DNA from: an uncultured Acetobacteraceae bacterium
GTDB taxonomy: Bacteria > Pseudomonadota > Alphaproteobacteria > Acetobacterales > Acetobacteraceae
NCBI GenBank assembly: GCA_902805625.1
Contig: CADCTL010000242.1
Location: 1-37,582 of the forward strand
DNA: 37,582 nt
Reading direction: 5' to 3'
Positions 34,655-37,513 of the stretch are shown in pieces; the stretch's first letter is position 1, and each line of letters starts with the position of its first letter. The translations under genes were made by a program, and so were the position numbers. The notes below the pieces were generated by a model, which ran no database searches, was not told the origin of the DNA, and worked only from the letters and a program-made list of their open reading frames with translations.

Positions 34655-35020
34655 ATGAACTCGGCGAAGGTGAAGGCCGCGCTGGACGAGGCGATGGAGA
34701 TCGAGGGCGCGCTCGGCGTGTGTCTCGTGGACTACCAGAGCGGCATGACCCTCGGCACCGCCGGCGGAGACGGCTTGAACCTCGAAATGGCGGCCGCCGG
34801 CACCACGGAAGTGGTGCGGTCCAAGCTGCGGGTGATGGGCGCGCTCGGCCTGGATGACCGGATCGAGGACGTGCTGATCACCTTGGGCACCCAGTACCAC
34901 CTGATCCGGATGGTGAAGGACACCGATTCCCTCTTCCTCTACATGGCGCTCAACAAGGGGCTCTCGAACCTTGGGATGGCCAAGTTCCAGCTCTCGAGCG
35001 TCGAGCGGAAGCTGAGTTGA
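34655..35020 (+). CDS. Roadblock/LC7-like protein, first of cassette
   Basis: A 121-residue protein of the roadblock/LC7 (MglB-like) superfamily, whose members dimerise and act as activators or scaffolds for small GTPases. The fold pattern is visible as an N-terminal helix (KVKAALDEAMEIEGALG), strand pair GVCLVDYQSGMTLG, a helix EMAAAGTTEVVRSKLRVMGALG, strands EDVLITLGTQYHLIRMV and SLFLYMALNK, and a final helix. GGAGA lies 8 nt before ATG 34655; GTG 34649 is a less likely start. It leads a four-gene set that also encodes a Ras-like GTPase and a second roadblock protein. Confidence 0.85.
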   Translation: MNSAKVKAALDEAMEIEGALGVCLVDYQSGMTLGTAGGDGLNLEMAAAGTTEVVRSKLRVMGALGLDDRIEDVLITLGTQYHLIRMVKDTDSLFLYMALNKGLSNLGMAKFQLSSVERKLS

Positions 35021-35103
35021 GCGGGCCACGGAAGGTGAAGAACCTGATCGACATGCCGGCGCGGGCCGCAGCCCCGCGCCACCGCAGCGGCGCTTGAGCG
35101 CCG

Positions 35104-36516
35104 GTGCCCAACGATACGCCCGGGAAAGGCGAAATGGAAAGGCTGCTCTGCTGCCTCCTCGGCTTCACCGAGAAAGACGCCCAGGTTCTCCGGAGCCTGA
35201 CCAGGCTCTTCCGGCCCAGCCTGAGCGCTGATTGGGCCTTCGAGGTCGGCGTCACGGAGGATTGCGACCTCCTGGTGTGCGACCTGGACGACCCCGGCGG
35301 CCAGCACGCGTGGAACAGCCCGGCGCCGCCCGGCCTGTTGCGCGCCGCCGCCAGCGGCAACGACGTGGACGCCGGCGCGCTGCTGCTGCGGAAGCCGGTG
35401 CGCGGCCACGGACCGTCCGGCATCGTGCAGGTGCTGAACGCCGCGGCCGCCATCAAGCGCCCGGACATCGCGCCGGCACCGCCTCCGTCACCCGGCCCCG
35501 GTCCCGCCGCGCCCGTGGCGGAAGCGGCGCCCGCGCCGTCCGCCTTCTTCAAGCCGGAAGCCGCGCTCAAACCCGCACCGGCGCCGCAAGCCTCCCGGAG
35601 CACCACGCCCCAACCGGCGGAGCCGTCACCGCGCGCCGCGGCGCTGGGCGCCGATGAGCAGGCCGTCGCACGGGACGCGGCAGGGTCGGTTTCGGATGAT
35701 CGTCACAGCGACGTTGCCGAACAGGTCGGCGCGGAGCAGGCCGCCCCCGCGCCCTTGATCGGCGAGGCGACCGAGCCGGCTCCGCCCCCTGCTTGGGCGT
35801 CCGAAACCCCGCACGGGGGGGAACCCGCCCAGGACGACGCCGACATCAAGGACATCCTGCGGCGCATGCGCTTCGCCACCCTCGGCAACCCAGCCGAGGC
35901 CCGGACGATGCTGGACGCGTTGCGCGACCTCCGCGGTTCGGACAAAGCGGCCGTGCTGGAAGCGCCGGGGCTGAAGTCGGTGTGCGTGATGCCGCAGGCG
36001 CGCGCCTGGTTCTCCACGGGGCCTGCGCCGGAAATCTTCGGCTGGCTCGGGGAAGGCAACCGGCCGGTGCGCGTGCTGCCCTTCGCCAACACGGAAGAGG
36101 CGCGCGACGCGGCCGGCTGCAAGGACGAGCCGGCCCGCCCCTTCGAGCAGCTCATGTGGCTGGCCTGCGTCCGCACGCCGCCGGAGCGCCTGGAGACATA
36201 CGAGTCCGCCCTGTTCCGCCTCAAGCGCTGGCCCGACCTCGGCAACCTGCCGCACGAGCCGCACCACATGCACTGGTGCGGCATCCTCACGCGGCAGCAG
36301 GCGCCGCTGCACGCCCTGGCGGGCACGGGCGGCGTGACGCCGGCGCAAACGGCGGCCTTCCTCGACGCTTGCGGCGAGCTGGGCATCCTGGAGCGCACCG
36401 CGGCCACGCCCGCCGAGATCGCGGCGGTGCAGTTGCCGGTGGTGTCCAAGAAGGGACGCGAGCGGGTCTCGCTCTTCAAGAACATCCTTGGCCGGTTGAG
36501 GATCTTCAAGTCTTGA
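35104..36516 (+). CDS. Unknown 470-residue protein of the roadblock-GTPase cassette
   Basis: Not a family I can name. The N-terminal part (about 12-118) has alternating strands and helices with LLCCLLGFTEKDAQVLRSL, an acidic strand end CDLLVCDLDD (54-63) and LLLRKPVRG (93-101). This resembles a receiver (CheY-like) fold with a Lys-Pro pair, but without the usual phosphorylation pocket, so a pseudo-receiver is my inference. Residues about 120-240 form a Pro/Ala-rich, probably disordered linker. The C-terminal part (about 245-470) is folded, contains HHMHWCGILTRQQ, and ends with a possible winged-helix region and a basic tail. The start is GTG 35104; ATG 35134, with GGGAAAGG before it, is a good alternative. 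It overlaps the GTPase gene by 4 nt. Confidence 0.72.
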   Translation: MPNDTPGKGEMERLLCCLLGFTEKDAQVLRSLTRLFRPSLSADWAFEVGVTEDCDLLVCDLDDPGGQHAWNSPAPPGLLRAAASGNDVDAGALLLRKPVRGHGPSGIVQVLNAAAAIKRPDIAPAPPPSPGPGPAAPVAEAAPAPSAFFKPEAALKPAPAPQASRSTTPQPAEPSPRAAALGADEQAVARDAAGSVSDDRHSDVAEQVGAEQAAPAPLIGEATEPAPPPAWASETPHGGEPAQDDADIKDILRRMRFATLGNPAEARTMLDALRDLRGSDKAAVLEAPGLKSVCVMPQARAWFSTGPAPEIFGWLGEGNRPVRVLPFANTEEARDAAGCKDEPARPFEQLMWLACVRTPPERLETYESALFRLKRWPDLGNLPHEPHHMHWCGILTRQQAPLHALAGTGGVTPAQTAAFLDACGELGILERTAATPAEIAAVQLPVVSKKGRERVSLFKNILGRLRIFKS

Positions 36517-37037
36517 AAGACATCAAGCTCATCATCACCGGCAGCATGGGCGCGGGGAAGACGACGGTCGTCAGCACGATCAGCGACATCCCCCCGATCC
36601 GCACCGACGTGCCGGTCAGCGCGGACAAGGTCCGCGGCGACAAGACCACCACCACGGTGGCGCTCGACTACGGGTCGCTGACGCTCGACAAGGAGCGCCG
36701 GCTGCTGATCTTCGGCACGCCCGGCCAGCGCCGCTACGACTTCATGTGCAAGATCCTGGCGCGCGGCGCGCTCGGCGTGGTGATCCTGATCGACCACGCG
36801 TGCCAGGACCCGGTGGACGACCTCCGCTACTACCTCAACCTGTTCAAGGACACGATCGAGGACTCCACCGCGGTGATCGGGGTGACCCACACGGACGAGA
36901 AGCCGGACTCCCCGTTGCAGCCCTACTACGACCTGCTGGAGGAGCGGGAGATGCCCCTCCCCGTGTTCAGCATCGACGCGAGGCGGCACGACCACATCAT
37001 CATGATGCTCGAGGCGCTGCTCGAGACTACCCGGTGA
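36513..37037 (+). CDS. Small Ras-like GTPase, MglA/CvnD type
   Basis: A 174-residue P-loop GTPase. Walker A (G1) is GSMGAGKT at 10-17. The switch I threonine lies in the DKTTTTVALDYG stretch (43-54). Switch II is FGTPGQRRYDFM, where GTPGQ (68-72) replaces the classical DxxGQ. THTD (125-128) takes the place of NKxD for guanine recognition. GTPGQ followed by an arginine and an aromatic residue is characteristic of GTPases encoded with roadblock proteins, such as CvnD of actinobacterial conservons; MglA has a similar TVPGQ. The start is TTG 36513, overlapping the previous stop as TTGA, so translation is coupled. No lipid or membrane anchor is seen. It is probably regulated by the flanking roadblock proteins. 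Confidence 0.9.
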   Translation: MKDIKLIITGSMGAGKTTVVSTISDIPPIRTDVPVSADKVRGDKTTTTVALDYGSLTLDKERRLLIFGTPGQRRYDFMCKILARGALGVVILIDHACQDPVDDLRYYLNLFKDTIEDSTAVIGVTHTDEKPDSPLQPYYDLLEEREMPLPVFSIDARRHDHIIMMLEALLETTR

Positions 37038-37050
37038 AGGATTGAGGGAC

Positions 37051-37452
37051 ATGGCTATCGACAACAAGCCCGCGCTGGCCGCGGCCGCCAAGCAGGCGCT
37101 GAGCCGCCTCGCCCAGAACTGCCCCGGGCTGAAGTGGGCGACGGTGGCCACCAAGGACGGGGCCGAGATCGCCAGCCACGGCTCCAGCGCCGACGAGAAG
37201 CTCAGCGTGATGACGGGCACCATGCACGCGCTCGCCGACGGCATCGTCGGCGAAGCGGAGCTGGGCTCCTGCAACGACATCATCCTCGCCGCCGCCAAGG
37301 GCCGCATCGTGATCCAAGGCCTCCAGGGCGCCGCGGGCGACCTGGTGCTGGCCGCCATGACGACGCCGCAGACCAGCCTCGGCCTGCTGCTCAACTGCTG
37401 CAGCACGGCGGGCAAGGAGATCAGCGCGGCGCTGGAGAAGCAGCCGGCCTAA
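37051..37452 (+). CDS. Roadblock/LC7-like protein, second of cassette
   Basis: A 133-residue roadblock/LC7 superfamily protein. It has an N-terminal helix (ALAAAAKQALSRLAQNCPG), strands LKWATVATKDGAEIASHG, the helix DEKLSVMTGTMHALADGIVGEAELG, and strands NDIILAAAKGRIVIQGL and DLVLAAMT, with a final helix. This is the MglB-type order with a longer N-terminus than the first roadblock protein. The start is ATG 37051 with GAGGGA just upstream; TTG 37042 is a poorer option. It follows the GTPase gene by 13 nt and is closed by a strong terminator, so it is the last cassette gene. Confidence 0.87.
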   Translation: MAIDNKPALAAAAKQALSRLAQNCPGLKWATVATKDGAEIASHGSSADEKLSVMTGTMHALADGIVGEAELGSCNDIILAAAKGRIVIQGLQGAAGDLVLAAMTTPQTSLGLLLNCCSTAGKEISAALEKQPA

Positions 37453-37489: not shown

Positions 37490-37513
37490 ACGCCGCCTTC
37501 GGGCGGCGTTTTT
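37490..37513 (+). terminator. Rho-independent terminator after the roadblock-GTPase cassette
   Basis: ACGCCGCC (37490-37497) pairs perfectly with GGCGGCGT (37502-37509) around a TTCG tetraloop, followed by TTTT. It lies 37 nt after the last roadblock stop. This is the only hairpin in the window with both a stable stem and a proper T-run. The final 69 bases of the window after it show no gene. Confidence 0.9.

Follow-up and report, generated by a model that had tools for sequence, protein, structure and literature searches.

The window analysed here, a 37,582-nucleotide stretch of DNA from an uncultured Acetobacteraceae bacterium (contig CADCTL010000242.1, assembly GCA_902805625.1), carries at its right-hand end four genes that almost certainly form a signalling operon of MglA Group 3, in the version with one MglA to two MglBs (1:2). 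The cassette is not a new system but a further case of one described in 2014 by Wuichet and Søgaard-Andersen (PMC4316618) in beta- and gammaproteobacteria, in which MglA is accompanied by one or two MglBs and a conserved protein with a receiver-like N-terminus, a variable linker and a winged-helix C-terminus. This identity is assigned because gene content, GTPase motifs, tree position (99/99) and predicted folds all fit. The features of the locus are as follows.

34655..35020, + strand: P1, predicted second MglB-type roadblock protein, 121 aa
35104..36516, + strand: P2, Group 3 three-part protein, 470 aa
36513..37037, + strand: MglA-family small GTPase, Group 3, 174 aa, TTG start
37051..37452, + strand: P4, predicted first MglB-type roadblock protein, 133 aa
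37492..37513, + strand: probable intrinsic terminator GCCGCC-TTCG-GGCGGC-GTTTTT, hairpin and T-run

All four genes are read in one direction on the forward strand between positions 34655 and 37452, as the original prediction had it. Its description of overlaps or short gaps holds where the TTG start of the GTPase gene overlaps the P2 stop by 4 nt, but not between P1 and P2, where the gap is 83 bp and tight coupling is therefore confined to the last three genes (P2, GTPase and P4). The single terminator said to close the set probably corresponds to a hairpin and T-run whose 22-nt string has one exact match, at 37492-37513, and none in 100 shuffles, but it was not in the list of a generic terminator scan. 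No sigma-70-like promoter was found. Upstream of the cassette there is a DUF3429 gene; on the other side, 130 bp of contig remain beyond P4.

The GTPase is the sole cassette protein above the Pfam cut-off (PF03029, E 5.7e-13), and it contains both motifs previously read from it, with GSMGAGKT at the P-loop, TT at G2 (TTTTVALDY), FGTPGQ at G3, THTD at G4 and DAR at G5. Under the Group 3 motif definition of PMC4316618, it shows GTPGQ, a G2 threonine replacing arginine, DAR, and a G4 motif without the usual lysine. In a tree built on a reference set assembled for this analysis, which differs from the 2014 set, the window GTPase falls inside Group 3, with a 99/99 split separating it from the CvnD, Deinococcus/Thermus and f188 sequences, and is nested among gammaproteobacterial ones, with Methylococcaceae and Thiomargarita nearest.

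Relatives of this GTPase were detected in 59 of the 398 Pseudomonadota genomes searched, and 80 named loci with beta- or gammaproteobacterial or unclassified Proteobacteria titles were added from a genome collection. Across 103 GTPase loci, neighbouring genes belonged to the P2 C-terminal family in 94, to the P4 family in 90 and to the P1 family in 33. These counts are approximate: what the P1 and P4 profiles detect overlaps in part, and the loci include truncated ones and a few from other GTPase groups. The original prediction was to be given up if the four genes were not conserved together; the set is found together elsewhere, so this objection does not apply. What was proposed there, a GTPase switch of proteobacteria combining two roadblock proteins with a receiver-like partner, corresponds to Group 3, but the “new receptor or effector subunit” is not new, as P2 is the conserved Group 3 protein, of the same architecture, already described in 2014 (PMC4316618).

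Several features of the related loci were also recorded. One-roadblock loci (L036, L038 and many of L066-L135, from Neisseriaceae, Methylococcaceae and others) share a further conserved gene, located between mglA and the gene for the roadblock protein, whose product of about 210 aa was assigned to no family here. A TPR-repeat protein gene lies directly upstream of P2 at L036:7706-9316 and L038:7653-9074, the former product showing a weak match to the type IV pilus protein PilW. The P2 and GTPase frames are broken in a Neisseria gonorrhoeae record (L004), unlike in its relative L038.

The two roadblock proteins claimed for the cassette are supported by different kinds of evidence, P1 by fold and P4 by sequence profile. 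P1 has no match to Pfam Robl_LC7, and that of P4 (E 0.0017) lies below the cut-off; because the model misses both proteins, a Robl_LC7 search of the window's own genome found nothing. The AF2 model of P1 (pLDDT 88) has the a-bb-a-bbb-a topology of a roadblock domain, and its best Foldseek match is M. xanthus MglB (6hjm, E 1.9e-8, TM 0.84), so the predicted fold is clearly MglB-like. In addition, P1 is 43-53% identical to the roadblock protein encoded after mglA-mglB in other loci of Group 3. An iterated profile places the P4 family after mglA across Group 3 loci and, together with the below-cut-off match, identifies P4 as a predicted MglB-type roadblock protein. Two MglB homologues (P4 and P1) thus adjoin the window mglA, Group 3 having one or two. 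Profile searches of P1 and P2 against PDB sequences yielded nothing useful.

P2 has no match in Pfam or NCBIfam, in keeping with its description as a 470-residue three-part protein of no known family, and its AF2 model resolves into a receiver-like domain (residues 11-123), a disordered linker (about 129-260), an alpha/beta middle part (263-337), a winged helix (347-433) and a C-terminal helix (449-464). Structure comparison of residues 11-123 with the AraT receiver domain (Z 11.4, rmsd 2.7 over 106 residues) confirmed a receiver fold in the modelled N-terminus; the list of structural matches covers this receiver part alone, and Foldseek with the whole P2 model gave no match at E <= 0.001. The pseudo-receiver-like reading of P2 is thereby upheld, and the structure prediction suggested as a check came out in its favour both here and for the roadblock fold of P1. 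The C-terminus is a predicted winged helix, on the strength of AF2 secondary structure and profile matches, and the alignment of P2 with Thiomargarita P2 (E 1.7e-18) takes in the N-terminal as well as the C-terminal part. With CheY positions assigned by secondary structure only, the receiver pocket retains D60 and K97, but its A81 stands in place of the Ser/Thr of most family members, and its T22 in place of an Asp found in half of them. As this pocket is degenerate, gating by phosphorylation may not apply in the window, and the receiver may instead act by binding. A DUF4388/PATAN assignment for the middle part was rejected, as the strand order is similar but the comparison of this part alone gave E 0.1.

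A basic amphipathic C-terminal helix is present in all 36 aligned P2 proteins, with a mean net charge of +2.8. The window P2 tail is SLFKNILGRLRIFKS, which we take to resemble a MinD-type membrane-targeting tail. Pfam scans of P2 gave no DUF742 match, but hhalign comparison of its C-terminal part returned matches to CvnC/DUF742 (E 1.3e-4, prob 54%) and to the DUF4388 proteins of Deinococcus/Thermus (E 2.5e-5, prob 75%), each a weak, single comparison. Shuffled or reversed targets gave prob <= 1.2%, the best of 16 unrelated families had E 0.1, and IclR and LysR, with shallow profiles, had E about 0.46; the GntR winged-helix control gave E 0.043 (0.006 when compared with only the winged helix), and single P2 family members also match TrmB or ArsR winged-helix profiles at about 3e-4. 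These values suggest that the C-terminal half of P2 resembles CvnC/DUF742, and give modest support at the profile level to a link with DUF742 and DUF4388 that is stronger than that with GntR, one general winged-helix family. P2, DUF742 and DUF4388 genes each lie directly upstream of mglA. So far as the literature found allows us to say, the tail helix and the C-terminal profile link both go beyond the 2014 description. The earlier statement that a kinase is lacking stands, as no CvnA sensor kinase is among the four cassette genes, but P2 does not simply take the place of DUF742, which its C-terminal half may itself resemble.

Compared with known systems, the window shares with Group 3 loci of Neisseria, Snodgrassella, Xanthomonas, Thiotrichales and Methylococcaceae its gene content, a P2-type protein directly before mglA, the GTPGQ and DAR motifs, one MglA with two MglBs, and the tree position. 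It differs in its alphaproteobacterial host, in the long Pro/Ala-rich linker and degenerate receiver pocket of P2, and in gene order, which is P1-P2-MglA-MglB rather than the usual P2-MglA-MglB-P1, although a Marinobacter locus (L091) also has the P1 gene before P2. The actinobacterial conservon (CvnA-D, Group 2; MfpE-D-C-B) likewise combines a roadblock protein, an MglA-family GTPase and a helix-turn-helix gene directly before the GTPase gene, but the window lacks its CvnA kinase, has two roadblocks and a GTPase in a different clade, and adds receiver-like and middle parts to the winged-helix protein. The DUF4388-GTPase-roadblock operons of Deinococcus/Thermus also place before mglA a gene for a protein with an input-like N-terminus, a winged helix and a basic amphipathic tail, but DUF4388/PATAN replaces the receiver and the GTPase belongs to a different clade. 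On Deinococcus and Thermus plasmids (L165-L172, L005), the DUF4388/PATAN-like gene is directly 5' of the MglA-type GTPase gene, usually with a roadblock gene after it, and its products end in a basic amphipathic tail; the Thermus loci also have protoglobin genes, which the window does not share, and two of them EAL (c-di-GMP) genes. The Group 1 system of M. xanthus (MglA/MglB/MglC with the RomR-RomX GEF) would be comparable in its Ras-like GTPase, its roadblock GAP and paralogue, and its receiver protein tied to exchange; however, the Group 1 TVPGQ motif and arginine finger are absent from the window GTPase, and the M. xanthus partners are not encoded together as in the window operon.

By analogy with these systems, we tentatively propose, with somewhat less than even confidence in the mechanism as a whole, that P2 is a receiver-gated, membrane-tethered exchange factor or adaptor whose signal is ended by the roadblock proteins. 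The basic amphipathic helix at the C-terminus would hold P2 to the membrane, and the winged helix would bind the GTPase and promote GDP release. This exchange would be gated or localised by the receiver-like N-terminus, which is attached by a long flexible linker. The exchange role is proposed because the C-terminus resembles CvnC/DUF742 and the mycobacterial CvnC homologue MfpC is reported, in work cited by PMC13343842 and PMC13015309, as a GEF for the GTPase MfpB. In M. xanthus, it is RomR/RomX that provide exchange activity (PMC9481161), and RomR carries a receiver domain (PMC6785124). MglA-GTP would act on a downstream target, probably the pilus machinery in relatives with type IV pili, until the roadblock pair stimulated GTP hydrolysis, with GAP activity probably in one copy and a modifying role in the other, on the pattern of MglB and MglC.

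An unlikely alternative is that P2 works as a transcription factor of the response-regulator kind, binding DNA with its winged helix under the control of MglA/MglB. DNA binding was proposed for the Group 3 winged helix in PMC4316618, a winged helix is predicted in the P2 model, single members of the family match DNA-binding profiles of the TrmB and ArsR types, and in the conservons cvn8 mutants change gene expression and CvnC has been suggested to bind DNA (PMC8510531). Weighing against this are the membrane-targeting type of helix that ends every aligned P2, the greater closeness of P2 to CvnC and the DUF4388 partners than to GntR, and the reports of MfpC as a GEF, and not as a DNA-binding protein. 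P2 could instead be no exchange factor on MglA-GDP but an effector or scaffold that recognises MglA-GTP and couples it to machinery in the membrane, for instance type IV pili, a reading to which we also give a low probability. The amphipathic tail would suit such a role, SgmX-type effectors are placed downstream of MglA in M. xanthus (PMC7519303, PMC7668184), and mutation of Snodgrassella mglB, a Group 3 roadblock gene, alters pilus-dependent motility (PMC11112851). PilT was over the cut-off in 22/22 GTPase-positive genomes tested, but as almost every non-carrier outside the window's class has it too, this co-occurrence is uninformative and was set aside as evidence of a pilus role. The recovered host genome (77% complete) yielded no homologue of PilT or PilM, which makes a pilus output doubtful in the window host.

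The locus is of interest as a rare case in alphaproteobacteria and for the testable function that it suggests for P2. The Group 3 partner protein was given no biochemical role in 2014, though such systems occur in many beta- and gammaproteobacteria, and no later assignment was found in the literature; the CvnC/MfpC link provides a role that can be tested, nucleotide release. More broadly, and with rather low confidence, a winged-helix and amphipathic-helix module before the GTPase gene may be a general exchange factor and membrane tether in Group 2, Group 3 and Deinococcus/Thermus, with only the input domain varying (separate kinase, receiver-like or PATAN) and P2 as the receiver-gated version. 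If true, bacterial Ras-like switches would share one common activator design across phyla.

The window GTPase type was found in 1 of the 385 sampled alphaproteobacterial genomes and 1 of the 299 genomes of the window's family, in both cases the window's own, and the other relatives searched yielded no P2. The host thus lies outside the beta- and gammaproteobacteria that “almost exclusively” carry Group 3 (PMC4316618), a matter of distribution and not a defining requirement. Within the window's family, three members of a single genus (L156-L158) encode a distant GTPase, 25-39% identical in aligned stretches, with roadblock-like genes adjoining; this set has no relation to the Group 3 cassette.

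The simplest reading is that the cassette was acquired horizontally, long ago, from a gammaproteobacterium, as the native left flank and host-like GC3 suggest. The CNNM protein to the left is up to 76% identical within the family, in which CNNM-DUF3429 synteny is conserved and genes other than the cassette follow DUF3429, and GC3 is 0.89-0.98 in the cassette and 0.85-0.93 in its neighbours. A misassembly or binning artefact that joined foreign DNA to an alphaproteobacterial contig would agree with the fragmentation of the genome (307 contigs) and the absence of the cassette from nearly all relatives; it is nevertheless very improbable, given those native neighbours on the same contig, the matching GC3, and a best foreign match to the GTPase of 51% identity, with no close foreign copy. 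A misjoin keeps a small probability because the contig ends so soon after P4, placing the cassette at its edge. The Acinetobacter wuhouensis plasmid p1_010062 (L003/L006), which is conjugative, carries Group 3-like GTPase and roadblock genes, making conjugative plasmids a possible route of horizontal spread for Group 3 genes.
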